Of a DNA stretch of 64,000 nt, positions 541-63,160 are shown in pieces (position 1 is the stretch's first letter; the number at the start of each line of letters is the position of its first letter). The notes beneath the pieces are model-generated. The model did not search any database and was not told the DNA's origin. It worked only from the letters and a program-made list of their open reading frames with translations. Origin of the DNA: Anaeramoeba flamelloides (taxonomy: Eukaryota; Metamonada; Anaeramoebidae). A program made the translations under genes and the position numbers. The stretch covers positions 6,159,001 through 6,223,000 of the forward strand of contig JANTQA010000036.1 of assembly GCA_027625915.1 (NCBI GenBank), given 5' to 3'.

Positions 541-1490
541 TTATTATTGAAGAGAGGTGATTCAACAAAATCACCTTCTGTTTGTTGTTAGGTTTTCCAG
601 AATTTAAAAGAATCGAGTAATATCTTTGATTTTTCTCTATTCTTTTGATTCTGAAAAACCACCTTCAGCTTTTCTTGAGTTTTCTGTTTATTTCGAAAAT
701 CGATATATTTTCGTTAGGTTTTTTTGAGTTTTCTATTTGTTTAGAAAATCAATAGATTTTCTTTAGGTTTTTTTGAGTTTTCTATTTTATTTGGAAAACC
801 CCAAGAAAAGCTAGGCACTTGACGGCACTTTTCCTTAGTTTTTTTTTTAATTTCACAAATAAAAAGAAAAATTCAAGAAAACCTAGAACACTTAAGAAAT
901 AAAATAGAAAACACCAAGAAAACTTCTGTTAGGTTTTTTTTTTTAATTTTTGAAATAAAACGAAAATTTATTTAATTTTGGGTTTATTTCCCAAATTAAA
1001 AAAAACTGTAGACACCAAACTTGGATAATTCAGCAACTCATTATATTTATATTTATATATTTCTTTCTGTTCATGTTTTAAATATAGAATAAAGAATTGA
1101 TTTGAGTTTTTATCTATTACTAAATTTTTGGTTTATTTCGAAAAATTAATTATCTTTTTTATTCGGTTTTTCAAGAATTCTAAAAAAATTGAGTTAAATC
1201 TTTGATTTTACCCCATTCTTTTGAATTATGGAAAACCTAGGCACTTGATGGCACTCTACGACACTTTACGGGACTTTTCATTAGGTTTTTTTTTTTTTTT
1301 TTTTTTATTTTTATGGGAAACTCAAAAGATTTTCAAAAAAAAAAACAAGAATTAAAAAAAAACAAACGGCACTTTTCCAGAATTCAAAAGAAAAGAGATA
1401 AATCCTATATTTTACTTACTACTTCTGAATTCTGAAAAAGATAAGCACTTGACGGAACTTAACTGCACTTAATGAAACTTACCGAATTCC
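541..1490 (-). mobile_element. LINE 3' tail built of tandem self-complementary modules
   Basis: Read on the + strand it starts with ttattattgaagagaggt and ends with repeated GGCACTT / GACGGCACTT units. Between these lie two kinds of hairpin module: one is CCAGAATTyAAAAGAATyGA followed by its reverse complement around a short centre (about 590-655, 1170-1240 and 1378-1440). The other is GTTAGGTTTTTT plus an aaataaac/gtttattt palindrome closing with AAAAAACCTA. The same architecture recurs at seven other places, and the GGCACTT side repeatedly abuts reverse-transcriptase tail remnants in minus orientation. I therefore read it as the 3' UTR of a minus-strand LINE. Confidence 0.6.
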
Positions 1491-1920
1491 TATATTTTTA
1501 TTTATAAATTTAATAAAAGATTCAAACATATTTTTATTATCCACTTGATCGACTAAAGATATTGTATCTTTTTTATTAATAATATCAAAAATACTATCTT
1601 TTTTTAAAATAATTGAAAAATTATTTTTTTCAAAATCCACATTTTATGATTATTTTCACAGAAAAACTTTTTTAGTTTCCAAAAGAAAATCAAAAAAATA
1701 CTCATCAAATGAACCAAAATTACCCTGATTTTTTTTTATTTCCTAATTGAACTTAATTATTTTTTAAATTTGATTGTTAATGCTGGTTTTAATATTATTT
1801 TGATAATTTAACAACTTCCACATTTTATAATTTTACAATTTTTTATTATACTCAATTTTCTCTTCAAATTGATTAATATTAAAAAAATCAAAAAAAAAAT
1901 AAAAATTAAAATCTGTATAG
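1491..1920 (-). mobile_element. Degraded LINE coding tail inside the RBR intron
   Basis: The stretch after cgaattccta matches the one following the tail array at 52790-52990, including the shared block attttatgattattttca at about 1640. That second copy continues into a recognisable zinc-binding reverse-transcriptase C-terminus. This copy is too worn to show the protein motif. It ends at a probable splice acceptor (ctgtatag, 1913-1920) of the RBR gene. Confidence 0.4.
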
Positions 1921-3109
<1,189 letters not shown>

Positions 3110-3723
3110 TAATTTATTACTACAATACTTTTAATTTTATGAAAAATTTACAAAATTTTAGAATAATTATAATAGAAATAAGGATTATCTTTATTTGAAA
3201 AAAATTTTTTAACTCTCATCTATTATTATTATTATTTAAATTATAATTTCTTTATTAAAAAAAGAATCGAAATTTTTAATTTTTTTTTTATAGTCTTTTG
3301 AAAAATTTTTACTTTAAAAAATTTAAAGAAACGTAATAGTTATTAAAAACTTTTTTAGAACGATAAATAAATAATATAAATTAACACACAAAATAATTTT
3401 GAGTATATTTTTAATATTTATTAATTTATTTTTTATTCAAACAAAAAATAAATTTGAAAATATTAAATCCACTATTTATCATTTAATTTAAGAATTCAAT
3501 TCAAATTATTTAAGTACCAAATTAATAATAAAAAGTTTCAAAAAATATATTTTGGAAAATTTACTCGAATTATATTCTTACATTACAATTAGTAAAATTG
3601 TGTTATCTCGTCAATAAGATTCAATTTATTTGACAAATGTTACAAATATCAATTCCAGAGAGTATTATAAGGTTTTTTTTACAACTAATTCTTCTTAAGG
3701 TTTATAAAAATATCAAACTCCAA
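3110..3723. other. Intergenic, nothing recognised
   Basis: AT-rich spacer downstream of the RBR stop. No ORF, splice-bounded exon or repeat shared with other parts of the window was seen. Confidence 0.4.
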
Positions 3724-4165
3724 CCTATATTTGAATTCTAATTGCTACAGCTGTTCCAAGGCTACCGTGAAATTTTTTCAATATCAAATTTTGATGTTGA
3801 TCTAGATTTTTAAATATAAGAATATAAGAATAAGAAAGCTTATATTGAAAATATTTTTTCATTAATGAGTTGATATGAAAAATATTTTTCTAATGTGATC
3901 AAAAATAAATTCATTTTTTAGAGTATATTTTATGTAGTTTCTTAATGAATTTTCAATGTATAAAATCATTTTGTACTAAAATTTATTTTTTGAAAGTCAG
4001 ATAAAATTCTTGAATATTAGCTCATTTAGGAATTTTTTTTCAATATTAGCTTTATTATACTTATATTCTTCGATTTAAAAAATTTTTATCAACATCAAAA
4101 TTTGATATTGATAAAATTTCAAAATAGCTATGGATCGACTGTAGCATTTTGATACAAAATATGGG
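3724..4165. repeat. Imperfect palindromic element, about 440 bp
   Basis: The left arm (tgctacag, then caatatcaaattttgatgtt at about 3780-3800) is matched inverted by the right arm (aacatcaaaatttgatattg at about 4092-4111, then ctgtagca at 4138-4145). The arms extend outwards to a shared accyatatttgaa-like block. The centre is unique. Arms have diverged, so this is an old foldback or MITE copy. A one-arm relative may lie near 34400-34490 (ccacatcaaattttaatatc). Confidence 0.6.
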
Positions 4166-5082
4166 AAAAAAAAGTTTTTTCTGTTCAAAAAAATTTTGAT
4201 TGAGAGATTTAATGAACAAATTTTCAAACTCTTTAAATAATTTTTTGAAATTTAAAAAAAAAAATTTTTGGTGATGTTTAAAATAAAATATTATCACTTA
4301 ACAACCAATTAATCATGTATTTTACAATCGATCTAAAAAATCAACAAATGAAATACAAGGTCATTTTTAGAAAAAATAGTCAAAGACCAAAACTCAATTT
4401 CCAATTAGAATAGTTGATGAATTATTATTTTTTAAACAGTTGTGTTATTTTCGAATGGTCACTTTGGTGCGCTTTTTGAGTTATCGGTGATTTTTTTTTC
4501 TTTTTTTTCATTTTTCAAATTAATTAATTTTATCTCAAAAATTTTACAAAATCCTTAATTTATAAATTTTAGAGGGTTACAAGATAACCACAAATTATAG
4601 TAAATCGAATGAAAGTTATTTTATTCTTAAAATAAAAACAATTTGTTTTAAATTGAAGAAATTTAATCATTTGGAAAGATAAAAAATGAAACTATTAATT
4701 GTTTTTTTTTTAAATTTTGAATTTTTTGAATTACTTCAAATAAACAAAAGTAATAAGATATTAAAGAATAATATTCTTTTTATTTTTCTCCAGTAAAAAT
4801 ATTAAAAAAATGATGATATATTTTTCAGATCTACATCACTTAATATATTAGTTATTATTCGAAACAAAGACTCCTTATTTATTTTATCATTAGTTAATGA
4901 TAAAGAAATATATGACTCTTTATTGAAATTTAGAAAAACAAAAATTTTGAAATCAGGGCTGTAAGAGGAAACTAATTTCCTCCCTTCAAAATAAAAAAAA
5001 ATAAAAATTTGAATTGTTTCAAATTGAGAATACTTTATTGTTTTAAAAATTAGATTTTTTGAAATTAATCTTGTGGCAATCA
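4166..5082. other. Intergenic, nothing recognised
   Basis: No gene supported. Short minus-strand ORFs of fewer than 100 residues here are low-complexity (F/K/I/N) and lack homologues I recognise. Confidence 0.35.
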
Positions 5083-5165
5083 AAAGTTGTGCAATTACAC
5101 AAAAGTCTTTTTGGTTTCAAGCCACACCTCGAGCATGTTGAAAAACCATGGTAAGTGACTAGAGC
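5083..5165 (+). other. High-complexity island ending in a strong splice-donor sequence
   Basis: An unusually GC-balanced 80-base block ending CCATG|GTAAGTGACT. One + frame reads VVQLHKSLFGFKPHLEHVEK, which looks like coding sequence. A minus frame entered from ctctag reads HLPWFFNMLEVWLETKKTFV and then stops. I cannot decide the strand or name a family. It could be a short exon of an unrecognised gene, a gene relic, or part of a transposon. Confidence 0.25.
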
Positions 5166-5249
5166 CTTAAAAAAGATATCATTAAATTTATTGAAATTGA
5201 TAAAATATTTTTCAAATAGAACTTCTCCCTTAATTTCAAAAAGTAGAAA

Positions 5250-5935
5250 CTATTTTTCAGAAAACCCAAAAAACTAAAAAGGTATATAAATTGGGAGTTT
5301 TAAAAAATTTGAAATGTGAAAACTTTTCAATTCAAAGTTCTTCGATTCTGATTTTTAGTATTTTTCATAATATGAATTAAATACAAAAAACAAACAAGCG
5401 TGCATTAATAAAAGTAACTAATTTTTTTCTCATAATATAATTTTAATAGCACTACAAGAATAATATAATCGATATAAATACTTTCAAGACTTTTTCGTAC
5501 TTTCAGACTGACAGTCTGCCAGATTTCAGTTTCTGATATTCTTGTATATTTTTTCAAATACCAAATACTTATACAAAACTTTTATAAGCCTAAAAAGGGA
5601 GCAAAAAATAATAATTTTAATATGGATAAACATTTTGAATTTAAAGGAAATTCATTTAAAGCCATCTTAAATAGAAAAATATTTGTTAACTTTCAATAAC
5701 CTGAACTCTTGTTATGAGAACCAAAATGTGCAGGTTATCCAAATTAGATGTTTTTATAAGTTTTACTTGTAAAAATTTTTAAATTGAAAGTTGTTGAATT
5801 TTGATCTTGTAATTCCTTTCAAAATATGAAACAATTTGAAAAAAACAAATTGTAGTCAAGTTATTGAAGTAACTATAATTTTTCTTCCATTTTTATTGTG
5901 AATATTACTCGAAAAAATCATTTTTTTGATTTGTA
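5250..5935 (+). repeat. Two copies of a repeat unit directly upstream of the carboxypeptidase start
   Basis: Units at about 5260-5450 and 5690-5900 resemble each other: an aaaacttttcaattcaaagtt / aaatttttaaattgaaagtt core, then ttgatcttgtaattcctttc or an equivalent, then a-rich sequence and a tail like gtaactataatttttctt. A third, similar unit lies at about 35980-36200, just 5' of another ATG (36239). The promoter and 5' leader of two unrelated genes therefore share a repeated sequence. Confidence 0.5.
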
Positions 5936-6208
5936 ATGATCAACCAATTGTTTTTCCTTTTTATTTTATTTCCCATATTAATTTTCAGCCACCCTTTTGT
6001 TGTGATCAATGATGTTTCCGTGGATGAAATTTGGGATGTGACGAGAACAACTTATGCATCTCATGAAGCATTTACTGGCTATGTCAAGGTAAATTCTACA
6101 ACAAATGCCAATATGTTTTATATGCTCTTTGAATCACAGGATGGCAATCAGGATGCACCATTGGCAATTTGGCTTCAAGGAGGACCAGGTTGCTCTTCTT
6201 TACTTGGG
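5936..6208 (+). CDS. Carboxypeptidase exon 1 (signal peptide and GGPGCSS)
   Basis: The ATG at 5936 is the only start giving a clean signal peptide. The exon covers the secreted N-terminus (GYVKVNSTTNANMFYMLFES, then LAIWLQGGPGCSSLLG). The next in-frame codons are GTT TGA, so splicing must occur here; the only GT is at 6209. Confidence 0.85.
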
Positions 6209-9200
6209 GTTTGACTTTTTTGCTTTCTTTTGAAAACAACTAACCCATATTAGTGTTACTAAAAACTTGTTTATCCATTTTTCTTTTAAATAGTTTGATT
6301 TCATTTTTTTCTCTTTTTCTATTCTTCAATTGATTTTAGGGGAATAACAAATTAAACCAAAAGACATCGAATACTCCAAGGATTGAACACACTTTCATTT
6401 AGTTCACCAAAATTAGTTTCCATTTTATCGAACACAAAGTTCGTCAAATTGCACAAAAAATAGTTTCTCCTTGCTTGTTTAGCTTTTTCAAAAAACAACA
6501 ATGAAAGAAAAGAACAAAGTTTTCGTTTCAAAAAGCACTCACAAAAATCATATAAACCATTCTTAATTTCTTGACTGAATTTACATGTCACATTTGTTTG
6601 TTTAAGTTTCGAGATCCAAATAAGATCAAAATGTAATACACATGAATTTCAAATCATTTGACAATTTTTTTGAACATTGTTACAAAATCGAATTGAAGCC
6701 TTTAAAAGTACTTTTATTGAAAATTTTATTGACTGTTTTCTTGGTGACAATTATTATTATGTCTAAATCAAGTACAGGTGCTTTAAAAAAGTTCAGATTC
6801 AAAGTTTTATCAACATATCCCTTCAAAAGTTATAAAAATATAAATTAGCACCAAAAAGTTCAAAAAATACCAAATTGAAAAAACAGTAACAAAAACCTGT
6901 AAAATGATTGTAGTTATTTTAAAAGTCATCTAAGCAATTGGTTAGGGGGGAAATATAAAGAGAAAAGGGTTTAAAATTTAAACATTTTCTGTAAAAAAAA
7001 ATTCTAAAACTGAAGACTTCAAATTTTGAGAAAATATAAAAATCTTCCAGGTTTTGATTATTTTCTTGTGAATAAGACCAGTAATGAGAAAAAACTTTCT
7101 TTTTTTGAGAATCTGATAGTGTTTTTTTCAAATATTTTACAATTATTCAATTGAAACACAAAAAGGAGGGCACATTCTCAAAAAAAAAAAAAAAAAATAT
7201 TTTCATTACCTTTTAAAAATCTTTTAAAATCATCTATATGAAATCCTCCAGTGTTAAATAATTATCTAAACACCAAAACGCGATCTGATGAAAAAACTGT
7301 TATTTTTACACTTTTATATAATTCAATATTTTGATTTTATTAATTATTTTAGTCAATTTTGGATTCAAAAACCTTCTAAAAGTTAAATTCAAATATTTAA
7401 TTTAGAATTACACTTTTGGAAATGTCTTTAAATCGATACTATTAAGAATTTCATTTCTCTCTGGACGTAATTAAACAAAAAAAAGGGTACATTTGAAGAA
7501 ATGGACTTTTTTTTCTTCATATTGAAAATATGAACATAAAGAAATAAATGAAAAATTTCTCAATCATTAACGAAAATATCAAAACCATAATACAATTATT
7601 GGTAGTGATTTTAATTGAAACAAAAATTAAATAACTTTTTTATCAAAATTCACTTAGCAAATTATTTTTTAATAATAAACCAAATTGAAAAAATAATAAC
7701 TTGTTTTATTTCATTTCAATATTCAAAAACTTAAAATCCAAAAGAATTAAAAATAAAATTAGTTATCATCATAGAATTTTAAATAAATTCAATATTTTTT
7801 TTTATTTATTTTTGAAGAGGGAAAATTACTTTTCTCCCGTATATCATTAGCTTTTTCCCAAATAACAAAAGAATAGAGAAAAATCATATATTTTAGTCAA
7901 TTCTTTTGAATTCTTGAAAAGTTTCTTTAGGTTTTTTTACTTATTGAAATGAAAAGAAAATTTATTAATTTTTTGGTTTATTCCAAAAATTAAAAAAAAT
8001 CGTCCTTAGCTTTTCCAGAATTTAAAAGAATTGAGCAAAATCTTTGATTTTTCTCCATTCTTTTAAATGCCGGAAAAGCTAGGCACTCTACGGCACTTGG
8101 CAACACTCGATGACACTTCCCTAATTTCAAATTTTTTTTTTTTTTTTGAATTTTTTTTAAATAATCACAAATTTTATTATCACTAACCAATGATAAGAAA
8201 AATGAAAAAATTTTTTTCTTAATAATACCTCCGATATTATTTATTTTTTTATTATTTTTATAAAATTGAGATATCTAGATTTTTCGATTTTTTTCATAGT
8301 CCGAATCCGTTAGCTTTTTTTTAATTTAGGAAATAAACAGAAAATTTATTTAATTTTCTGTGTATTTCTCAAAAAAAAAAAAAAAAAAAAAAATAGATAC
8401 TTAACAAAATATCTAAAAATAATTTCTATTCAAAATAATATTAACAAACAATCGTGTTGTCAAGTGTCGCCAAGTGCCTAGGTTTTCTTGGGGTTTTCTA
8501 GGATTCAAAAGAATTGAGTGAAATCAGGGGTTACACTCAATTCTTTTAAATTTTAGTAAACTGCCTTTATCTTTTTTTTCAATTTAAGAAATAAACTAAA
8601 ATTCAAAATTTTCCACACAGCTAAAACGTTCCAAACAATCACAATAATACAATTTCATTGAAATTGGAGATAATTTTGATTTTTGAAAAATATGAAAATC
8701 ATTTTTTCATCTTTTAGTTTTTGTTTTCATTTCATTGTTTAAATTACGTAATTTGCTTCGTTGGATCAAAATTTTTCTACAAGGTTTATATTATGTTAAA
8801 GTTGAGTTGTTCAAAATAGAAGAACTCAAATAAAATTAGTTGGTAGTATCTAACCATTTGATCGATCAATAATCCTAATAGAATTTAAACAAATTTACTA
8901 ATGTATTTTTTGTTTTGCTCTCTCCAAAATTTTTAACACACCCATGATTTATTTGTATTGATAATTATTTATTTTTTGTTTTGTGAGTATTTTATTTTAT
9001 AAAAAGGTGTTAACATTTCAATTAGTGAATGGTTCTAATTTGGTAAATCTTCGAGAAGTGATTAAATAAGTTTTAATTTTCACAAATCGAATTTTGGTGT
9101 GTTAAAAATTTTGAATTGGGGTTTAGTAAGAAAATTTCTTAAATTTTCTTTTTATTTCCCAAATTAAAAACAACTTAGGAACTTGACGACCATTGACGGC

Positions 9201-12200
9201 ACGGTTTATCAAAAAAATTATCCAAGTCTTCAATGAAATCAATATTTAACTTTTCTTTACATAAATCACAATTTTTATTTTTATTATTGCTTGTTACATA
9301 AGAGTACCTTTTTAAACAATTAGTAAAATTATGAAATTTTAGAATTGTTTTTGAAGCTTCACAGTTTAAATATTTTTGTTGTTTGAAATTGCAATTTTGT
9401 TGTTTTATAATTTTTAGATTTTGTTGAACTTTCCAACTAATTGGATTTCCCAATTTGGTTAATCGAAAAACTTTTAATTCTAAATCTAATAATTTTAAAC
9501 CCTCAGTATACCAATTAATATTTTCATTTTCCAGTGTTCAAAAATTTAATACCGTTTTTAATTTTTTTTTTTAATTTAAGAAATATAATTTTTCAATCAA
9601 TTTATATTTTCTTTGGTAGATTTAAAATCTCCAAAAGATCAATTTTTACTTCAGTTTTATAAATTAATCTTCGTGAATGAATATTAATTTGTTAGAAATT
9701 TGTAACTGATATATTGATAAATCTATCAATTCTTTCAAAATAACTTTTTGTCAAATCAAATATTTTGAGTACATTAAAAAGTTGTCTTAAAATGAGAGCT
9801 TTTAAAGAAGTTATTTTGACCCCATTATTGGGTTTATTTTGTTGAAACAATTAATTAAGTATTTCCAAGAACTTTTCGACTTTTTTGGAATTATATTCAA
9901 GATTGGTGTTTTTTTTCTAACTAAATTCCAAGATAAAAAATATATTTTAATTCTTTTTTATATTTAGTTTTTTTATTATGTCGGTTCACCCCGAATCTTT
10001 TTTTTATTTCAAAAATCCTTTCTAAATTAATTTATACTGAGATTAAAGTATCCCTTTATAATGGGAATAAGATCATATGCATACATTAAAACACGAACAG
10101 CTAAAGTTTTTAACTTTTCTAGTAGGAAATGAGATATAAATGTGAAGAGAATTGGTGATAAGGGATACCTACCCTTGATAAACCCCAATCCCTTCTTTTT
10201 TATAATATCTTAAGAGCAAATTTTTGATTTTTTCAATTTTTTATAAAAATTTTCATAGATTGATATATTAATGAGTGTTGTATAGAAAAAAACATTTTTG
10301 TATGTCTATAGTAACTACAAAATATTCTGTATTTTTATTTTTATTTTTTATTTTTTAAAATTTTCTTAATAAATTTAAAACAGCAATTCTTGTTCCAAAA
10401 TATTTTATTAAATTTATTTTGTTTTTTTGAAATTAAATCCCAAGAGTCATGAATTCTCTATTTATATCAAATTTTTAAAAAAATATTGGAATAGATTGAT
10501 TTATAGAGATTATTCTAGAGTTCATTGGTTCACCTTCATCCCCTGATTTATGAATAAATAATAAATTTCTTTTTTTAATAAAAATTATACTTTTTTTCAG
10601 TTTCGTAGATTATCCAATTTTAAAAAAAATATTTTGAGGTGTTTTAATAAAACTATTATAAACAAATAAATATTGTAAGGACTAGTTTTTTATAAATATT
10701 TAATTTTTTTATTTTGTCAAATTCATCAACTGATTTATTTTTTTTGAAATTTGATTATTTCTTTAATTTTATCTTGATCAAAAATATCCTAAAAGTCAAT
10801 TGGAGTTAATGAATTTTTATTAATTTTTAATTTTTTAATATAATTAATAAAATTAGTATTAGGTTTTTTACCAACTGATTTTACAAAATCGTTATATACT
10901 TCGAATATGGTTTCATTATTTAAAAAAAATTTTTTGTAGAGGTTTCTCTTATTTTATTTAATGTTTTCCAAAAGTTTTTTATTTTTATTATATTCTTCAT
11001 TAAGTAATTTTAAGTTATTTAATTCATTATTTTTTTTTGTAATAGTTCATTTTTTATCAAAAAAATTTATAAAGTAAATTATTAATTTTTAATGCATTTT
11101 GTTTGATAAGAAAAAACTATTCTTTCCTTTTGTTTACTATTTTTTTCAAAATAAATTGAACAAAATTCCCATTCAGCTTTCCACAAAAAGATTTTTAAGT
11201 TAGGTAACTTTTCAAATTTTTAATTCTTAAAATCAGTTTAATTTTTTATTTCCCCTTTTTAGAATTGTAGACTTTTATGATTTATTTTGATTCTATGGTA
11301 AGTGATTTTTTCGGAAAGTTTAATGAAAATTTTTTTCTTTTTATTTTGAAAGCTACAGTATACTTTAAAATAAATTCTTTTTCAGTCAAAGGGGCACAGT
11401 TTTATTGAAGAAATAGATAATATTCTTTGAGTTTAATTCATTATTCTTCTCAAAATAAATTTCAAATTTTTTGATCAAAATCATTTTTTCTCATTTTGTA
11501 TAATTTTTTTTTTCTTTTTCTTTTTTCTTTTGAAGCTTTTTTTTTTCTTCTTCTTTACTTTTTATTTTTTTTGTTTTTAAAAAATTCAATTTTATTTGAA
11601 AAAAAAAAAATGTTTGAAACTCCAAATTAACATTAAGAAAAGTTAGGCTTTGTATGTTCTTTTAAAATGTTTATATATACAATAAAAATATCTTATTGTC
11701 AACAATTTGTAATTTCCTAAAGAAATTGAGGAATTTTTCATGAGGCATTTCTATGAAAGAGGCTCAAAATTTTTTTAACATATTATTTTTTCGAAATTTA
11801 TGGTTTGTTCAGGTATTTCTTTTATGATTATCAATTCTAATATGGGGGTTTATTAATTCTATTATTTCTAAACAATCCTAGTTTGGTTGATTCTTAAAAA
11901 AAAGTGAATTTTTGATTTTTGGCTGGGAATCTTTGAGTGAAATCGAGTTTATTATATTTTAGAAATAGATTAAAGATATCAATCATTTTTTATTGAATTT
12001 CCATTCTATCAAAAAAATCGAAAAATTTGGATCAAAGAAGTAATCATAAAAAAATAATAATAATAATCAACTAAAGAATAATATCATTTTTATTATTCAA
12101 AATAAATACTTATTATTTATCCTGTTGTTTGTAAATGATGAAGAAAATTATGATTCTTAAATAAAATTTCTGAAAAAAAAACTCGGAATTATAGACGCAA

Positions 12201-15200
12201 AAGGAAATTAATGTGTTTCCTTAAAAATTAAAAAAAAAATCGCATTTTTTACTTGGCAAAGCAAAAAATTATCTACTAATCTGAAATTCCCGTTGTTGGT
12301 ATAAAAACAAAAAAAAATCAAGGCATTATGTTCCAATTCCATTGAGAGTTCGATTTTTATAAAATTCCAAAATATTATTCAAATCATTCAAACAATTTTT
12401 TCAAAGAATTAGCAATTCTATGAAGTATAAGTGTGATAGATTTTTAATTCAAATATTCTTTGTTTGATTTTGTAATATTTAGAAAAATGAATTATTACTT
12501 TTGAAAATTGATGCTTATCGTGGATTTCAAACCTTTTATCTTCATATTTAACATTTTACACATTACCACCATAACCATTCAACCTTTTATTTTATTGGTG
12601 ATGTAAACATATTTCAATAACAAATTAAAATATTTGTATTAAATTATTTAAAAATATATTTTTTTTTTATTATTTTTAGAATGATATATGAAAATGGACC
12701 AGCTTTAATCAACGAAAATGGAGATCTAATAGATAACCCTTATTCTTGGAACAAAAATTTAAATATTGTTTATATCGATAATCCGGTAGGAAGTGGTTAC
12801 TCTTATGTTGAAGATTCAAATGGTTACATTAAAGATGAAATTGAAATGGCAAATCAGCTTGAAATAATGATTTCTGTGTTTTATTCAAAATATACAAAAT
12901 TTAATGGAAAGCAATTATATATTTTTGGAGAAAGTTATGCAGGTAAAAATTCTTTTTAAATTAACTTTTTGTGATAATCAATTTTTTTTTTTTAAAAATT
13001 ATTTATGAAATAGAGAATGAAATAAATTGATATAGATTCTTACAGTAGAAAAGGGTTTTAATTCATTTTTACCGTATTTTGTTCACTAATTACACCATAA
13101 ATTGTCTTTATAGAAATAAATATTAATTGAAGAATTACTTTTCTTTTTTGAGAAAATTTTTTTGGTTAGTTCAAAAATTCTTTGATCCAAACAATGTAAA
13201 ATATTTGTCTTATTTTCAGAAGGATAGTTTTAACCATTAAAAATCTAAAAACTTTTTACCAAGCCTTGTGTTTTAATTTTAATATAAATTAGATTTTTCG
13301 ATATAAAATTTTCTTGAAGATATTTTGGAATTAGGTATTTTTATATTTGAAATTCTAAATCATTTTTTTATTTACAAAAATGATTTAAATTGTTATAATG
13401 ATTCTTCTGAATAAGACCAAAACAATTTTTTAAAAAAATTTTTCAAAATTTGACATTTTTTTGCAGTTTTTTTTTCTTTTTTCAAACTTGAAAGAATAAT
13501 AAAATTATACTTTATAGATCTGTTTTTATTGACAATATTTCGTTAAGATTCGATCAAATTTTCATTTATTTTATTCCCTATACCTCAATTGTTTTTATTG
13601 ACTGATGTTTGAATTGAAATATTAACAATATCAAAGAATAACAAAATAAATTTTTTTTTTAAAATTAAATGATGTTTAGAAAAGAAAAAACTAAAAATAT
13701 TAAAGATCTTTTTCAATAATTAATTTAATTGTTAATAAAAATAATCAGTTAATTTTTTTGGTTTTAGAATGGAAAAATGTGAATTTTGGATTTCAAAAAA
13801 GAGACCCCAATTAATAAATTGTTTAAATGAGGTTAACTCATCATTCCCTAATCCAAAACACAAATTAAAAAAAAAAATTCTTTTTTTGGATCTTTTCAAC
13901 AAGATTATCTTTTATTTTTAAAAAATACTTGTGGTTTAACGGAGTAAGTACATTTTAAAAATTTTAAGTATAATCATTTATACGAAATGGAATCCTTAAA
14001 ATTATTTCTTTAACTAAATAAATGAAAATTTAAAGAAAAAAGGCAGAGGAGAATATATCCAAGTATAATAGTTTAGATCTCAATTAAAAAAAATTGAAAT
14101 CAAAATAATGAAAAAATAAAAAATAATCATTTATTTCTTGATCTTATCTGATGTATACTATTTGAAATAATTACTTCTTCTTTACTTCAATTTTATTTTT
14201 AATTCTAGAAACGAGAATTTTTTTATTGAACATATTTTTTAGAAATATAATAATTAAAATTTCTAAAGAATTTCCAAAAATGAAATCTAATTCTAATTTT
14301 CCTTTAATTCATCAAAATTAGATTTAGTTTTGGTTCAAGAAAATATGATATTTTTTTAACCCGTCTTCAGAGATATAGGGTTATTGGGATTTATTAATTT
14401 CTTGAAAATAAATTTATCTAAAAATACTAAATTTTTGACGTTATAAGCTTGTCTAAATAATTGATAGGATAAAAAAACTCTAAATATATTTTAGAGTTTC
14501 AGGAAGTGCAGTCAATTGCATTGGTTTTCTTGAGGTTTTCTGTTTTATTTTTGAAGTGTTCTAGGTTTTTTTTACTTTTTGAAATAAACAGAAAATTTTA
14601 ATAAATTTTCCGTTTATTTCGAAAAGTAAAAAAAACCTAACGAAAATCTATTGATTTTCCAAATAAAAAAAAAAATCAAGAAAATCTAACTGCAGTTTTC
14701 GAAAATTTAATAGAATCCTGTAAAACCAAAGATTTTTACTCAATTCTTTCAAATTCTTGAAAAAATATAGATTTTTATTGTTCTTTTTATTTCTCAAATT
14801 AAAAAAACCCTAATGGAAGTGTCTTCAAGTGTCGTCAAGTACCTGGGTTTTCTTGAGGTTTTCTTTTTTATTTGTGAAGTGTTCTAGGTTTTTTTTTACC
14901 TTTTTGAAATAAACATAAAATTTTAATAAATTTTCGGTTTATTTTGAAAAAAAAAACCTAACGAAAATATATTAATTTTCAAAATAAACAGAAAACCTCA
15001 AGAAAAACCTAGAACACTTTACAAATAAAATAATATAACCCAAAAAAAACCTAGAACACTTAACAAATAAATCGAAAACTCAAAAAAATCTAACGAAAAT
15101 CAATTTATTTTCCAAATAAACAGAAAACTCAAGTTAAGCTAACGGTGTTTTTTTTTCGTTTTTTGTTATTGTTTCGAAAATCTATTGATTTTTGAATCAA

Positions 15201-15502
15201 AACAAAAATTCAAAAAAGCTTACTTCAAACAGAAAAATGTTTTTTATATAAATTGTCTCTCTTCAATAATAATAAAAAAAATACTATTTTTTTCTTTTAT
15301 TAAATGAAAATAATTCTTTCTCTTTTTTTCCTCTCTTCAAGATTAAAAATAATTTTTTATTTATTTTTACGTAAAAAGAAAATAAGGATTTTTTTTCTCT
15401 TACAATAAAATTAATCAAAACCAATCAAAACCAAAATCAAATACTAATTTTTTTTTTGCAATTGGTTATATTCGATTTTATTTGATATATTTTGTAAGTT
15501 AT

Positions 15503-20604: not shown

Positions 20605-21440
20605 ATTAAGAACGTTTTTGTTGAGATTTTATTAATAGACCTTGATTTGGTTCTAAAAAGTAAAAATGAAAAAATGATTTTATTAGAACATTCTACATCC
20701 TTATTTCCCAAAAGTCTTCAAATCAGGAGTGAAATGAAATTCATGCTTCTCTTTTTAAACCAGATCCAATCTATTTCGAATTGTCTATAAAATAGTTGTT
20801 TAAGATTCAGATCATCTTACAAATATTAAAGTTTCCAAAAATATCGGATTGAAAAATTTCAAAATCCTATGTTTAAAATAAAACTCAGGTTTTTTTCTTC
20901 TTGTTTCAATACTAAAATCTAATTTAATTTTAAATAATACAGTCAAGTTCAAATCAATTTTGAAAGTAAACTCCTGGATTTATTGGGTGTATTTTAAATT
21001 ATGAAGTGAATTTGTTTAAAATTCTAAGTAATTATCTAATTTTTAACAAATTTATTCTTGTTTTTTATGATAAATTTTTTATTCTGAAAAATTAACAATA
21101 GTTTAATGAGAAGATATTTTTCTTTGATTTTCATTTTTAAAATGGATTTAATTTTACAAATAAAATTTCTACCCATCATTGATTCTTTCTTTTATTAGTT
21201 ATTATGAACTCAAAATAAGTGAATGTAAACAATATAATAACATTCTTTGTCAAACAAAAATAAAAAATTATCGATTATTTATATTAAATCCAAGATTTTT
21301 AAGAAGAAAATTTAATCTTAAATTTTTCTCTATTCCTTAAATTCAAGAAAAATGTGTTCAATTTTTTTTAATTTTTGTAATTCAAAAAAATAATTGAAGA
21401 AAATTTCGTTTTTATTTCTTATGATTAAAACAACATAGGA
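20605..21440. repeat. Spacer with a partial copy of the 32.4 kb palindromic element
   Basis: At about 20885-21080 the sequence ttttcttcttgtttcaatac, then caaatcaattttgaaagtaaa, matches one arm of the element at 32405-33165 inverted. The rest of the spacer, including the CNOT9 5' flank, shows nothing I can name. Confidence 0.5.
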
Positions 21441-22480
21441 AATTAAAATAGTTTTAGGTTATTTGAAAAAATTAAGTAAAATCCTTGATTTTACTAAATT
21501 CTTTTTAATTCTAGAAAACCACCGTTAGCGTTTTTTTAATTTGAGAAATAACAAAAAATAATTTAAGAAAATTTCGGTTTATTTCTTAAATTAAAAAAAA
21601 CTTTTGTTAGATTTTCTTGAGTTTTCTGTTTATTTGGAGAATTAATAGATTTTCCTTCGTTTTTTTGAGGTTTCTATTTATTTGTGAAGTGTTCTAGGTT
21701 TTTTTGAAGTTTTATATTTTATTTGTAAAATCAAAAGAATTTTAAAAAAAACCGAGAAAACTTAACAAATAAAACAGAAAATCTCAAGAAAAAAACAAGT
21801 TACCTTTTCCAGAATTCAAAAGAATTAAGTTAAATCTTTACTTCTACTAAATTCTTTTGAATTCTCGAAAACCAACGTTATCTTTTGTTTAATTTAAGAA
21901 TTTAAAAAGAAAATTTCATAAATTTTATGTTTATTTCTTAAATTAAAAAAAATTCATAGACGCATTTGGTTTGTTTTTAATTTTTGGAATACAGTTAAAT
22001 CAAATATTTAATAGAATTCTTTTAAATTTCTAAAAATCATTATTAACTTTTCTTTGGGTTTTTCTTTATTTTGAATCTTGATAGATTTTCTGAATGAAAA
22101 AAAAGCCATAGAAGATCCCAGGTAAAATTTTCCAAAATTTAAAAGAAATGTACAAAATATTTGATTTTTCTCTATTCTTTTAAACAGTGAAAAAGTTTTG
22201 TTAGATTTTTTTTAATTTTTTGAAAAATAATTAAAATTTTTGATTATTTTAAACCGAGGAACCCTGGCACAATATCTGAATTAACAGGAGGAACAAAAAC
22301 TCTATAGAAATATTATTCATTAAAAATTAGAACCCGACGATTGGTTATTTATAATTAGTATTAAGATGTCTTTATGTTTTTTTTTTAAATTTAAAAGAGT
22401 CAAGTAAAATTTATAATTTCGCTCAATTCTTTTTTAATTAAAAAAAACCTAGTCTAAACATCAAAGAGCAGGGAACTAGG
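21441..22480 (-). mobile_element. LINE 3' tail with many hairpin modules
   Basis: Modules at about 21470-21540 (attgaa...ttctttttaattctag), 21600-21760 (GTTAGATTTTCTTGAGTTTT and the GTTCTAGG variant) and 21800-21870 (ccagaattcaaaagaatta paired with attcttttgaattct). Others lie at 21895-21960, 22130-22200 and 22385-22450. GGCAC units are rare, so this is a divergent or internally rearranged array. Confidence 0.5.
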
Positions 22481-29078: not shown

Positions 29079-29290
29079 AAAAAACCTAGAAAACTTAACA
29101 AATAAAACAGTATTTCTCAAGAAAACCCACTTTAATTTTTTTTTAATTTTAAAATAAAAAGAAAATTTCTTATTTTTTTTTTTTTATTTCTTAAATTAAA
29201 AAAAAAACTAGGAGCGTTACATCACTTTAGAGTACTTTAAATCACTTTTTGTACTCTCCAGAACTTTTTAGTACTTCCATAATTTATATA
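29079..29290 (-). mobile_element. Short LINE 3' tail
   Basis: An AAAACCTAGAAAACTTAACA module, an aaataaaaagaaaatttctt palindrome, then ACTAGGAGCGTTACATCACTT and degenerate ACTT units, followed by ttccataatttatatatttt as at the end of other arrays. Confidence 0.5.
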
Positions 29291-29880
29291 TTTTATATTA
29301 AGAACTTTTAATAAAGAATTATAATTTTCTTTAAGTTTAATCAAAGGAAAAGAAAAAATAATGGGTTTTAAATAAAAATAATATCAAAGTTATTATTATT
29401 TCCGTTGTTATTTTATTTTTATTAATTCTTCAATCCAGATTTTTACATTTTTTTATAAGATGGATAGTCCCAGAATAAATCACTGAAATATTCAATGATT
29501 TTCTCAATCTTTTATTTTTTTTTACATGAATATTTTGATTTTTTTTTATTTTTATCATATATATATAAGCCAAATTTCAAAATTCAGGTAAAACTTTTTT
29601 ATTATTATTTTTTTCTTTTTTCATTTGTCTTACAAAAAATAAAATGATTACACTATATTTTTATTTATTAATCTATATTGACTAATGTCTCTAAAAAATT
29701 TCGTAAAATACATTATTCTTCAAAAAAAAAACAATTAAATTAATTTTTTTCTGATAAAAAATCTGCCCCTATTTTTGAAATTAAGCTTAGAATATCTGTT
29801 TAAATAATTTGTGACTATTCAAAATTCTAAAATAGGGGTTAATTCTGTATATTTAATACATTACATGGTGTTATTTTTTT
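29291..29880. other. Intergenic, nothing recognised
   Basis: Possibly further LINE-derived sequence next to the tail array, but no frame or motif survives. (TA)n-like run at about 29557-29569. Confidence 0.35.
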
Positions 29881-30330
29881 TTTTAATTTGACTAATAAAC
29901 AGAATATCTTCGAAATTTTTTTTATATCTCAAATTCAAAAGAAAAAGCCTTTAGTTTTTCTAGAATTCAAAAGAATAGAGTAAAATCTTTGATTTAACTC
30001 AATTCTTTTGAATTCTAGAAAAGTTGGGCACTTGTAGGTACTTTACAGTGCTCTACAGCATTTAAAGACACAACTATTTATTGGCATTATTATTATCACT
30101 AATAATTTTTCAATATTCTTGAACTTTCCATCCAGAACTATTTATTATCAAATTTTGTCTAAAATTATTTAGATTTGCTTTTTATATTATTAAATTTTCT
30201 ATTTCCCAATTAATATTTTTGTTGTTCTTTTTTTAAAAACTTTTAATCGGTGTGAAATGTGTTCTCAAATCCTAGAATTTCTGATTTTTTTTTGAGCTTA
30301 TTTCTTGTTTTGAATATTGAAATTATGACT
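29881..30330 (-). mobile_element. LINE 3' tail plus remnant of the reverse-transcriptase C-terminus
   Basis: A hairpin ctagaattcaaaagaatag with its inverse attcttttgaattctag (about 29957-30020), then GGGCACTTGTAGGTACTT units. On the minus strand the following block reads NINWEIENLI...SSGWKVQEY. This parallels ENINWYTEGL...ISWKVQQN next to the LINE fossil at 9400-9530. The zinc-binding motif is lost. The remnant lies just 3' of POLD2. Confidence 0.55.
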
Positions 30331-50436: not shown

Positions 50437-53400
50437 CTGAAAAATAAAAAAATTAAATAAATTATAAATGAGTTTTGTATAATTGATCTAGTTATATTAT
50501 TAAGATTCAGAATAAAAGAAAATTCAATATATCGTAAAAAAAAAAAAAAAAAAAAAATTTACCTTTTGTAAGTAGAAAATCTCTGAGTTCATCTTTCTTA
50601 ATAATTGGAGGAAGAGGTAAAAATGGTTCATATTGTGGAACACAATTTCTCATAGAAACTTCCAACCTAATTGCATTATATATAATAATGTTTATATTTA
50701 ACAAAATAAAAAAATTAAAGACGGAAAAAAAACAATTTAATTTAAAAAAATAAAAATAAAAATTCAAAATAAAGGCTCATACTGGTATTTGATAATTTCA
50801 TCATCTTTTAAAGGCTTTACTGCAATGAAAATATGATTTTGTTTACTTTTGAAACTAGACGGTACAAATGTAGTATTACCATCAATAAAGACAATAACGA
50901 CCACATCATTGCCAATATGTTTTTTTCTGGTAACTTGCTGCGAATCTTTTTCATTATATGGGAGAATAGTCAAGACATGGAACATAATCGAAAAATCGTT
51001 CCATTCTGTATAAATGCTAGTTTCTCCACTTGCATTATGTTTTACATCTAACCCTCCTCTATATTTTTTCCAACCTAAAAGGGTTATTGGCTCACCAAGA
51101 ATATCTAAAAAATCTTGGAATTCCTTGCTAGTTTCAACGTTTGTTATATATTCTTCTTGTGTTTTTTGTTGGTCTTTTATATATAAAACACCAAATTTAT
51201 AATTTCTTGGAATCTTTAAGAAATTAAGATAATTATTTTTTAAAAATATAAATTGAGAAATATATATTAATAGATAAAAGCCATTAATATATATATATAT
51301 AAATTTCAATGAATTGATATTATGGAACGAAGAAAAATAAAAAAAAAAATGAATTAATGATTTATTAAGCTGGAAAAATAGATCAAAAAAAAAAATATAG
51401 ATTGAAAGTGAATTTAAAAAAAACTTTGTTCAATTGAAAATTATTGTATAAAGTAAGCTATATTTCAAAAAATGTGACTCGCCTGTAATCATAAATTGAA
51501 AAAAAAACTATATTCTTTAGTATTCAAAAACTAAGAATTATTAAATTTTATTAATAATTCCCTTTTAAAGTATTTCTAACCACATAAAAACCTGATATTT
51601 GAAAAAATTACAAAAAAAATAAAATCAAAAACTAAAAAAAAGCAAATCACATTTTTTGAAATGAGTATTTACCGATTCTTTATTACTGAACTTTCACTGA
51701 AAAAAAGTTAAACAAAAAGATTTTTTGCGAAATATTAAATTCATTTTAAAAGACATTTCTTAGTCTCTGTTTTCTTAGTTATTATTTGTCTTTTCTAAGA
51801 TCTGTTTTTTTTTTAAACTTGGATTAATGATTAATTAAATAAAAATTGAAAAAAAAAAAAAGTAAAATGAGAAAAAATGATTTCAATTTCGAATTGTCCA
51901 AAATTAAATTTTTTCAAGTTTAAAATAATTATTGGGAATTTTTTGTTGTTGTGGTTTTTTTTATACCATGTTGGTTTATAACTCGGTTATTTTATTTTTA
52001 ATGTTAATTTTTGTACACTTCCTTCACATATATTATGATTTTTTTCTTATTGAATTAAAATAATTTTGTTTAAAGTCCTTTTATAAAAGCGTGACAAAAA
52101 AGTGTACAAAAATTATCTTTAAAATTGAGATAAATAAACATCAATATCCTTATTTTTCAGACTCGATTAAAAAAATTTTTTCTCGCACTTTTTGAAAATT
52201 ACTTTAGAAATATTTAGATAAAGTGTTGAATTTTGAGCTTTTTCAAAAAATGTAAAAAATAGACTAAACTTTTCATAAACAATAATTAATTTTTTAAAAA
52301 TATGAATTGAAGAAAGGTTGATATTCAGAGTAGTAATAGCGTGTAAAAATTAAAAATGAAAAAGTAATTATTATTATTATTATTATTATTTAAGGGAGAG
52401 TTATTAATTCCTCTTGTTAGCCGTTATGTTTTTTTTGATTTGAGAAATAAAAAGGTAAATTTATTTAATTTTCCTTTAATTTCTAAAATTAAAAAAAACC
52501 GCCATTAGGTTTTCCATAATTTAAAAGAATTGAGTAAAATTAAAGATTTTACTCTATTCTTTTTAAATTTTGGAAAACCTAGGCACTCTACGGCACTTCA
52601 GGTTAGGTTTTCTTGAGTTTTCTGCTTATTTATAAAATCAATAGATTTTATAAATAAAACAGAAAACCCGAAGAAAACCCCAGTTAGGTTTTCCAGAATT
52701 TAAAAGAATTGAGAAAAATCTTTGATTGTACTATATTCTTTTGAATTAAAAAAAAAACATAAGCACTTTACGGCACTCTGCAGCACTTTCCCGAATTCCT
52801 AAATTTTTATTTAAAAATTTTTTTAAAATACTAAAAAAAAATTTATTACCCACTAAAGCTTATAAACATGTTAAATTTTGTTTTATAATAATATTAAAAA
52901 TTTTATTATTTTTTAATATATAAGAGATATATTAATTTTTTTTAATTCTGATATTCGGATTTTATGATTATTTTCATAGGCTGAGCAATTAAATAGAAAA
53001 TGGTCTAAATCTTCAATGGTATCTAAATTATTTGGTTTTTTACATAGTTCACAATTTTTTTGATTTTTTTTATAACATCAGAAGTAATTTATTGTTATTA
53101 TTATTACTCGAGAAGTGTGAAATACACTCTATTTGGCATTATACTTTTTATTTTTCGTAAAGAAATTTATGATTTAAAATCAGAGATTTCCCGATTGATA
53201 ATTAATGAAAATAATTTCAAACTATTTTGATTTATAATTAATTAAAAAAGGTTTTTTTCTTTTGATTTGTTTTTAAATATTAATATATTATTTTTCATAA
53301 GAAAGGATATAGCCATAAAAAATGATTAATATTTTCTATTATTTCGTTATGTTCATATTTTCAACATAAAAGGCTAAATTTTATTTTCTTCAAAAGTAAC

Positions 53401-60829: not shown

Positions 60830-61450
60830 TTTATTTTTTTTTTTTTTTATTGAAGAGAGGTAATTAAATAAAATTTCCTCGTGTTTGCCTTTAGGTTTTC
60901 CAAAATTTAAAACAATTGAGTAAAATCTATGATTTTTCTCTATTCTTTTGAATTCTGGAAAAGCGCCGTTAGGTTTTTTTTACTTTGGAAATAAACTGAA
61001 AATTAAATTTAATTTTCGTTTTTATTTCTCAAAATTAAAAAAACCTAGGCACTCTATGGTACTTGACGGCTGTTTTCGTTCGATTTTTTTTTAATTTTTG
61101 TTTTGATTAGAAAACCAATAGATTTTCGTTAGGTTTTTTTTACTTTAGAAATAAACAGAAAATTTATTAAAATTTTCTGTTTATTTCTAAAGTAAAAAAA
61201 ACCTAGAACACTTCAAAAAAAAAACAAAAAGTAAAAAAAAAATGACGTTAGCTTTTCCAGAATTTAAAAGAATTGAGTAAAAATCTTTGGTTTTTCTCTA
61301 TTATTTTGAATTCTGGAAAAGCGCCGTTAGGTTTTTTTTAATTTGTGAAATAAAAAAAAAATTTCAAAAATTTTCTTTTAATTTCTTAAATTAAAAAAAA
61401 CCTAGGCACTCTACGGCTCTTGACGACACTTGGTGGAACTTCCTGAAACA
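60830..61450 (-). mobile_element. LINE 3' tail, the clearest module array
   Basis: ttattgaagagaggtaatta at 60848, then CCAAAATTTAAAACAATTGA with its inverse (about 60899-60962). Next comes GTTAGGTTTTTTTTACTTT with aaataaacagaaaatttatt and its exact inverse (about 61129-61203). A second hairpin follows at 61256-61320, a further module at 61328-61400, and GGCACTCTACGGCTCTTGACG at about 61405. The internal palindromes here are near-perfect. Confidence 0.65.
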
Positions 61451-63160
61451 TTAAATTTATTTAAAGTTTTTTATACTAGCAATAGTTTAGACTGCATTTT
61501 AACTGATAGGATAACTTTTCTTTAAAAAATGTAAAGAAAAAATTTTATTTTTAAAACATGAACAGAAAAAGAGAAAAAAAGCAAAAAAAAAGGATATTCT
61601 TAGGCTTTATTGGTAAGAGTGAAGTGCTCCAGAGCTCTTAATCTGTTAAAGGGAGAGTTTTGATGTGACTAAATTTTTGACTCCTAATTCAAAGAGTAGT
61701 CAAAAGAACCTTTTAATTACAGCCATTAGAAGTGTTTTAAACTCAATTTAGTTTTCTGAAACAAAAGATATTCAAAAAATAGAAAAAAAAAGTAAATATT
61801 TCAAAAAATGTTTTTTTTTTTTTTTTTTGTTTCCAGAGTTTTGAATGGGTTATGGTTGTTCCCTTTGAAAAGTCTGTTTTTGAAAAAAAAAATTATAGGG
61901 GAATTGATTAAATATCAATTAAAAAAATATTCTACAATAATTATATTTTTTTGAGATGGTTCAATATACGGAAATATGAGTTTTTTCAAAACATTTTTTT
62001 TAAAATGAATTTTTACACTTGTATTGATTGAAAATTTATTTTTATTTATTTTGATGGTTAAACCAAGGATTATTAAACTTTAAAAATAAAATAAATATTG
62101 ACAATAATTATATTCTGTTTTTTTTTTTTTTTTTTTTTGATTATTGATAATCAAATAAATTTGAATTTGAATCACAAAAAAAAAAATAAAAAGAATGTTT
62201 GGGCTTTAAAAGAATTTTATCAATTTAAAAAAATTATTTTTTAAATAAAGTTAATTGAAAATATTTTTACAATATCATAATTATGTATATATATATTTCT
62301 TTATATGGGAAAACAAGTTTTTTATAATTTTTCTTTTCTTAAACTATTTTCTCTGGTAAATTAGTAAATTTTCTAAAAAAACCCAAAAAAAAATTTTTAG
62401 GAAATTTTTTAACTTCTTATTTCAAGTAATTTATGATAGCTGGACTTGGTTTTTTTTATTAGTTGACTTTTAGTAACTTAAATTTCAAATTTTATTTCCA
62501 AGATCAAATTTTTTAAAAAAGTGAAAGTAATTTTTTTCTTTGTTTTAAACTATCACATTTTGATTCTTTTTGGTAAAAAAACAAAAAATGATTCTTTTTT
62601 CGATTCAAACTGTAGAAATATCATCTAAAATTAAGATCAGCAACATGAGTATCTCTAATTCAATTATCTCTTAACAAAGAAAAAAATTGTATAATTATGA
62701 AGAATAAATTAACTATTGATAATAATTTTGGATATTTGAAAAGTTAAAATAGAATAAAGTTTGATAAAATTTTTTTTGGTTGTCTCGTTTCTCTCAAAGT
62801 ACAATTTGTTGAAACAAGGTAACTTGGGCTGAGGTTGCGTGGTAAAGGTTTTGAAGAATTTTTTATGAAAGGATCTTATGGGAATTAAATTTGTAAAAAT
62901 TATTCAGTTTTTTTTTATTTTTAAAAAAAATATTGTGTCAGTTTAAAAAAAATGATTTGAACAAAAAGATTTGATCTTTAGGGTTTTTGAAATTCCAGGA
63001 TTTAAGATTTGACAGTTAAGGAAGCTGTACTTAGAAAAATAAATTGAATTTCTTCAATTCACAGTTTTCCTTTAAACTATCAAACTAAATTCTTTGAATG
63101 GAATTATTACTGATCTAATTTGATCCTGTATATTTCGGTAATTCTTCTATTAGATTTGAC
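61451..63160. other. No gene seen; possible LINE or other relic at the left
   Basis: Follows the tail array, so the first 100 bases may be worn LINE coding tail. Poly-T runs occur at about 61810 and 62120. A more complex block at about 61600-61740 has no open frame I can name. Confidence 0.3.

Follow-up and report, generated by a model that had tools for sequence, protein, structure and literature searches.

Clusters of palindromic cassettes, probably exchanged at a single point, in LINE-type retroelements of Anaeramoeba flamelloides

Introduction

An array of palindromic modules on the reverse strand, at positions 60830-61450 of a 64,000-nucleotide stretch of the Anaeramoeba flamelloides genome (hereafter the window, the whole stretch of DNA that was analysed), raises the question of what such arrays are and how they come to lie next to retroelements. 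An earlier note, made from the sequence of the window, had listed eight places with arrays of this kind and had proposed that they constitute the 3' untranslated region (UTR) of one LINE family, with hairpins that could be the structure recognised by its reverse transcriptase (RT). All eight places hold palindromic modules together with GGCACTT/GACGGCACTT-type units, degenerate in some of them, and both the array edge TTATTATTGAAGAGAG and the AATAATAA-type tail are real. The nature of the arrays was addressed by analysing their modules, their neighbours and the LINE 3' ends that hold them or lack them, in the window and in loci from the rest of the genome (designated here by L numbers).

Results

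Composition and folding of the arrays

Module HMMs were built for three hairpins (A, B and C), with further models representing the run of units (G), the edge at the tail (E) and the non-coding sequence that adjoins the arrays (K). They delimit 13 clusters in the window, spanning 3,897 of its 64,000 bases. Hairpin A is a 68-nt palindrome and hairpin B a 69-nt palindrome; hairpin C, a longer palindrome known from its arms, often carries another nested unit in its loop. The arrays had been described as two hairpin types in a constant order, but three types are present (A, B and the nested C), and their order, number and kind all vary from array to array. The minimal cassette encompasses 84-89 bp and reads AAAGTGCC-TAGG-hairpin-CCTA-AC-GGC, where the hairpin may be A, B or C. 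Terminal inverted repeats are present, with consensus arms complementary at 30 of 32 positions in A and at 32 of 32 in B.

Folding of the minus-strand RNA, which the earlier note had suggested as a check, revealed an extremely stable structure for 60846-61445, with an energy of -204.4 kcal/mol; shuffled sequences averaged -97.2 (sd 6.0; z = -18), and none of 100 folded as low. The pairing of the arms was also analysed for covariation. For hairpin A (46 copies), self pairing amounted to 0.816 versus 0.809 after shuffling, and 147 of 2000 shuffles scored as high, indicating no covariation, as expected for copies decaying after insertion. For hairpin B (45 copies) the values were 0.853 and 0.818, with no shuffle in 2000 as high; this modest excess of covariation involves matched changes between subfamilies.

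The modules are abundant well beyond the window. A search of the genome (254 Mb in 76 contigs) with a 28-nt A arm, allowing up to two mismatches, returned 9,918 matches (4,996 + 4,922), a count in which a well-kept palindrome can appear twice, once on each strand; the reversed pattern returned none. A simple tandem satellite was discarded as a description of the arrays, given that TRF finds only short pieces within them and that module order varies, and no match to a known structured RNA was obtained in the window with Rfam at the gathering score.

Elements adjoining the arrays

The neighbours of each array were read on the strand in which the units appear as AAGTGCC, and LINE identity was assigned by eye from translations. 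The array at the centre of this study (60886..61440, minus strand) comprises hairpins A and B, units, hairpins B, A and B, and again units. It is followed by the terminal stem-loop and tail of the element that holds it (60848..60885, minus strand), a match to the E model, and is preceded at its unit side by a constant non-coding sequence (61441..61572, minus strand) that is not a LINE ORF. This K-type element is also the host of the array at 14439..15275 (plus strand), with its tail at 15260-15275. The LINE remnant expected at the other edge is therefore absent from both 60830-61450 and 14341-15275. It is present elsewhere: translation identified the CCHC region near 52960, and LINE ORF sequence was recognised by eye at 9202, 30066, 1490, 8125 and 29280.

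In several of these cases the unit side adjoins the C-terminus of LINE ORF2, which reads like ...FLNKNLGIR (window positions 1490, 8125, 29280 and 52800, and L003:2224). The array at 541..1490 (minus strand) lies at a LINE 3' end, where the ORF ends in ...SFIKFINKNIGIR* at the unit side and the ORF2 C-terminal remnant occupies 1491..1660 (minus strand; by eye). An array of two composites at 52370..52800 (minus strand) abuts an ORF2 C-terminus with a CCHC-like motif (CELCKKPNNLDTIEDLDHFLFNCSAYENN; 52801..53060, reverse-strand translation). The arrays at 7806..8125 and 8310..9202 (both minus strand), treated before as separate tails, belong to a single LINE copy, the former at its 3' end and the latter inside its ORF, in the CCHC region. 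Likewise, the supposed single tail at 29079-30065 resolves into a 3'-end array (29079..29280) and an ORF-internal array (29860..30066), both on the minus strand of one LINE copy. A 3' end of the same LINE family without any array, that is, an empty site, is found at 4848..5000 (plus strand).

Elsewhere the unit side adjoins the interior of a LINE ORF (window 9202 and 30066; L004, L008 and L019:6266), an antisense LINE ORF (L002, L005, L033:3660 and L025:9471), the non-coding K element (e.g. 60830-61450 and 14341-15275) or a third kind of non-coding repeat (L007, L018, L031 and window 22470). The last is represented in the window by a degenerate array at 21289..22470 (minus strand), assigned by eye. 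The K elements L022, L027 and L029 have the same pair of constant ends with no module between them. The exact edge word TTATTATTGAAGAGAGGTAA was located in 17 places, 11 of them with K sequence and two (L018 and L031) beside the third repeat; in L017, L021, L026 and L030 it belongs to a different repeat family, which has both the word and its upstream stretch in common, and hence the word alone is no marker of arrays.

Repeated sequence flanks 10 of the 13 array clusters in the window, as compared to 73 of 120 random points, so that confinement of the arrays to retroelements is not established by the window, where the clusters stand out no more clearly than random points. With L017-L033 added, a sample picked for element edges and thus biased for this count, the values are 30 of 34 clusters (by eye) and 209 of 400 points.

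Two further features of the window were recorded. A dispersed repeat of about 550 bp lies at 8600-9110, inside the ORF-internal array 8310-9202, and also at positions 200-1050 of L002; it recurs in other loci (by eye), and its flanks there have 13-15 matches in the sequence examined. The segment 1910-3109 (plus strand) is a gene for an Ariadne-type RBR ubiquitin ligase, in which a perfect (AAT) repeat, 38.7 copies long, codes for polyasparagine.

LINE 3' ends are empty or filled at one nucleotide

A query with the 55 C-terminal amino acids of the LINE yielded 4,573 first-look candidates genome-wide, 150 of which were scored. Nine of the 13 best-ranked places were fetched, together with one (L053) chosen by its unit motif. 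Seven of the nine fetched top-ranked copies lack an array at the exact nucleotide that is filled in others. In these empty copies the ORF continues to ...LNKNLEIRAVRGN or ...LRFLNKNLEIRAVRGN, with IK for IR in L047 and RK for RG in L049, and its stop codon falls within a short terminal stem-loop; the empty copies L046, L048 and L052 read AATTTAGAAATTAGG-GCTGTAAGAGGAAATTGATTTCCTCCCTTCAAAATAAAA. In L044, L051 and the chosen L053 an insert is present exactly at ATTAGG^GCTG. Over all 13 best-ranked places, nine are empty (seven read, two by pattern) and four filled (L003, L044 and L051 read, one by pattern). These results suggest that presence of an array is not a property of most putatively active copies, and they show that a single nucleotide position, between the last codons of ORF2 and the terminal stem-loop, is occupied in some copies of the LINE and unoccupied in others.

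Genome-wide pattern counts, allowing up to two mismatches, returned 116 empty and 172 filled ends of all ages, with no matches for the reversed controls; the filled pattern represents one junction, of arrays ending in AAAACCTAAC only, and 100 places were listed per pattern. Ten further filled places were read, namely the six remaining perfect matches and four that differ from the pattern at one position. Among the resulting 13 filled copies, a single hairpin A constitutes the insert in L051, L054, L056 and L062, and a single hairpin B in L044, L058, L059, L060 and L061. Two hairpins are found in L055 (A then B) and in L053 and L063 (B then A), and L057 contains a complex array. The simplest inserts add 84-89 bp, and the target duplication at the insertion site comprises at most 1-2 nt (G or GG). 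As judged by eye, AAGTGCC-like units equal hairpins in number in nine of the 12 simple filled ends, with more units than hairpins in L044, L058 and L053.

Near-identical LINE copies differ in the hairpin they hold

The history of the site was analysed with a tree based on 190 nt of LINE flank alone, encompassing 18 copies. It replaces an earlier 20-row tree, with seven changes among empty, A and B, which had included L056 and L058; part of the flank of these two copies is not LINE sequence and they were left out. One clade, with support 99/97, gathers seven empty copies, two with hairpin A and two with hairpin B. LINE copies that are 96-99% alike carry nothing, hairpin A or hairpin B at the same position. 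Among the 14 copies scored as empty, A or B, at least five state changes are required, on a tree whose bootstrap had not settled and whose forks inside the young clade have little support or are left open; taken by themselves, the well-supported branches impose two changes for A and two for B.

A salient case is that of L059, the LINE flank of which has 98.4% identity to both L054, which holds hairpin A, and L045, which is empty. The insert of L059 matches that of L060, from the same young clade, at 97.8% identity and that of L061, from another clade, at 94.5%. The empty state is clustered on the tree (three changes, as low in nine of 500 shuffles), and the A and B labels are no more clustered than shuffled labels (500 of 500). 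Rank or pattern, not chance, decided which 20 LINE copies were sampled, and the frequencies of the states among them are consequently not those of the genome. The data show that near-identical LINE copies differ in the hairpin they hold.

Carriage of cassettes by the LINE

For ten filled copies that were also read upstream, the sequence following the tail was compared with that at the truncated start of the LINE in search of direct repeats. In four of them (L054, L059, L062 and L063), target duplications of 17, 13, 14 and 15 nt, respectively, end at the start of the truncated LINE, and repeats as long were obtained in 0, 1, 0 and 0 of 200 shuffles. The same comparison revealed no convincing target duplication in the other six, among which L055 has a 12-nt repeat (3 of 200 shuffles) that is not at the LINE start. 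It follows from these duplications that the LINE machinery carried the cassette: in these four copies the array lies inside a retrotransposed unit with 5' truncation. The earlier note had reasoned that arrays mostly lacking an adjacent LINE remnant, or flanked on both edges by a constant target duplication, would make up an independent element. By that reasoning the arrays are largely independent, but the duplication encloses the LINE and the array, not the array alone.

The array-bearing LINE itself is known only from its C-terminal part, and the RT domain was read in a sister LINE. A frame of L036 matches RVT_1 with E = 6.1e-27 over profile positions 1-203 of 205, this being the only domain found in the two frames scanned for domain families. 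In the PDB, the sister LINE has weak similarity to R2 proteins, with E = 5.7e-6 for the best of them. Its RT has 3,530 first-look candidates genome-wide, of which 150 were scored. No array was found between ORF and tail in the ten loci of this sister LINE (L034-L043). L034 holds an antisense array that is also present in L002, and in L041 the array of another element lies directly behind the sister-LINE tail.

The sister LINE presents two further peculiarities. Its ORF2 ends with GGGCACTTAGAGTG (L043) or GGGCACTCAGAGTG (L037), words that resemble the array unit GGCACTT and whose position corresponds to the array insertion point. In L039 and L040, another small insert, with a frame reading SVSLLRHKLSTKFKAQ...KVKLTV, breaks the LINE ORFs at different points, and part of it is also seen after the stop codon in L043 (all by eye).

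Cassettes inside LINE ORFs

Cassettes are not restricted to LINE 3' ends: they also lie within LINE ORFs, sense or antisense, and in non-coding elements whose 3' ends are of the same kind. The LINE ORF of L004 is interrupted by an insert of 304 bp; alignment with an uninterrupted stretch of the window (87% identity over 218 nt) revealed that the junction is clean and that nothing is duplicated. In L002, L005 and L033 a single ORF point is occupied by antisense inserts of 205, 419 and 244 bp, respectively, and the differences among them imply that here, too, a fixed site has changed its content. Copies without an interruption at this ORF site possess 7-8 nt at the junction that are absent from the joined flanks. 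Where the far side of ORF-internal arrays was checked (window 8313 and 29877, and L004), the LINE ORF resumes. Splicing found no support as an account of the ORF inserts, the ends of which show no GT...AG by eye.

A terminal stem-loop is common to filled and empty ends

A short stem-loop lies just before the CTTCAA(T/A)AATAA-type tail. Its sequence varies by family and its pairing is kept: the stem is GAGGTAATT/AATTACCTC at K-type ends, GAGGAAA/TTTCCTC or GAGGAGA/TCTCCTC in the array-bearing LINE and AGTGTA/TACACT in L019. It is common to filled and empty LINE copies and is present in both the LINE and its non-coding partner. Among 187 candidate sites, 20 have a hairpin score of at least 6 before a CTTCAA-like tail, versus five after shuffling; 14 of these 20 show one of the four stem types (two of them imperfectly), and the remaining six are array hairpins or chance (by eye). 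This stem-loop and the TTCAA(T/A)AATAA-type tail, rather than the array, may hence be what the RT recognises, and we consider them the better candidate.

Discussion

The proposal that prompted this analysis holds in part. In one large LINE family, arrays do occur at the 3' ends of copies, where they directly follow the final codons of ORF2 and precede the tail, and they are retrotransposed together with the LINE; yet seven of the nine fetched top-ranked copies have none, and the empty copies and the ORF inserts led us to reject a single LINE 3' UTR. The companion claim, that the array hairpins are the structure recognised by the RT, is likewise not supported, with the same seven empty copies and with cassettes also inside ORFs, in antisense and in elements other than LINEs. 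A functional 3' UTR with RT-recognised hairpins could account for the extreme stability of the fold, for the sense position at the 3' end, for the slight covariation of the B arms in 45 copies and for the larger count of filled over empty ends (172 versus 116) when all ages are pooled. Set against these points, hairpin A shows no covariation, arrays also lie within ORFs and in antisense orientation, and the part that filled and empty ends have in common is the short terminal stem-loop, which makes this reading very improbable.

We lean instead towards the view that the arrays are clusters of short palindromic passenger cassettes within LINE-type retroelements, copied by the LINE machinery and exchanged at one point. 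The junctions and the tree suggest that this exchange probably takes place by template switching. Target-primed reverse transcription would start at the tail, pass the terminal stem-loop and then meet the long hairpins, where the RT might pause and switch to the RNA of another element. Hairpins would in this manner be gained, lost or swapped at the same point, and switching could also spread them to partner elements with a common tail. Template switching is something we infer, and the antisense ORF inserts would be easier to obtain through DNA transposition. The lack of covariation in hairpin A, the six filled copies with no convincing target duplication and, in the window, array clusters that adjoin repeats no more clearly than random points do also count against this explanation.

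An alternative that fits those inserts is a miniature transposon acting at the DNA level. A MITE, a foldback element or a REPIN-like palindrome, mobilised by a transposase in trans, would insert with a strong site preference for certain LINE sites and for the loops of other hairpins, and the LINEs would copy what had landed. The common ends TAGG...CCTA of the palindromic units (partly by eye), the units nested in hairpin loops (by eye) and the presence of both orientations inside LINE ORFs agree with such an origin, which fits the antisense inserts better, and the published descriptions of Pithovirus M1/M2 and of bacterial REPINs, as far as they go, portray units alike in build. The target duplication is, however, at most 1-2 nt at the LINE 3' site and absent in L004, with no constant duplication found, and it is the same nucleotide that has been filled repeatedly. 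No transposase match was obtained in the 18 ORFs scanned out of the 19 of at least 250 aa in L017-L033. On balance, we regard this origin as unlikely, if by some way the strongest of the alternatives. A more static history, with one or a few ancestral insertions per site that were later changed only by slippage and by recombination or gene conversion between genomic copies, without continuing movement, would explain why junctions are fixed while module numbers change. Three copies that do not belong to the clade with empty and one-hairpin copies (L053, L055 and L063) carry two hairpins each, and the one-hairpin states might derive from these. Such a history is nonetheless improbable: empty, A and B alternate, at different places, among copies whose LINE flanks are 96-99% alike, seven of the 11 copies in the youngest clade are empty, and conversion would need to act within a short time.

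Exchange of passenger cassettes by the LINE machinery can be taken one step further, to a possibility that we put forward tentatively. The cassettes might be parasites at the RNA level, spreading by stalling the LINE RT and inducing a template switch at one point just upstream of the recognition stem-loop. They would move between LINE and non-coding lineages without an enzyme of their own and would grow by nesting, each added hairpin bringing its own AAGTGCC...GGC bracket.

Several parts of this picture are already known, namely hairpin repeats in mixed clusters, LINE tails with stem-loops and LINE chimeras. In stringent-type LINEs and SINEs, the 3' end signal is described as one stem-loop (PMC3747384). 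The ends studied here resemble them in having a simple tail preceded by a short terminal stem-loop, which is common to LINEs and a non-coding element and whose paired sequences are family-specific; unlike in that description, an optional and variable array of far longer hairpins may sit just upstream. The Pithovirus palindromes M1 and M2 are reported to form mixed clusters (M1-M2)n-M1 of variable number in intergenic regions, with a putative TA duplication (PMC10664404). The likeness to our arrays, two palindromes in mixed clusters of variable number, is one of build and not of sequence, and the arrays differ from that account in lying in or next to retroelements and in showing no such TA duplication. 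REPINs, as described, are likewise miniature units in which two inverted repeats form a hairpin, and some of them are clustered in tandem; they are bacterial and extragenic, in contrast to the eukaryotic, LINE-associated cassettes, and are tied to RAYT transposases (PMC3116915). The hairpin and double-hairpin elements reported from mitochondria also insert in coding sequence, as the cassettes do, and their double hairpins are attributed to tandem insertion (PMC2800124); they reside in organelle genomes, and the part of the account available to us mentions no retrotransposon carrier. Single and double template switches with site preference have been reported for a LINE (PMC2104539), and foreign RNA sequence is described as joined into LINE copies during reverse transcription (PMC2104539, PMC13174262). 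The chimeras so described consist of copies of other transcripts fused to each other, whereas the palindromic cassette occupies a constant point within the element. No LINE with such hairpin arrays was found in the literature searched on the subject. What appears to be new is a palindromic cassette at one nucleotide of a LINE 3' end that has been replaced repeatedly among near-identical copies, a combination that was not encountered in that literature.

One module arm alone has some ten thousand matches in 254 Mb, which makes these modules a large feature of the genome. Locus L023 encodes, at 3298-6981, a helicase C-terminal domain, an RNase III domain and a sub-threshold match to the Dicer dimerisation domain in adjacent frames; together they make up a Dicer-like gene, and hairpin RNAs could therefore be processed in this host. 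For LINE tails, the results separate a short stem-loop, which probably recruits the RT, from a much larger structured passenger. A site that is empty, filled with A or filled with B in copies 96-99% alike constitutes a natural record of a LINE RT meeting strong hairpins, and this exchange site could help settle whether template switching assembles retroelements piecewise.
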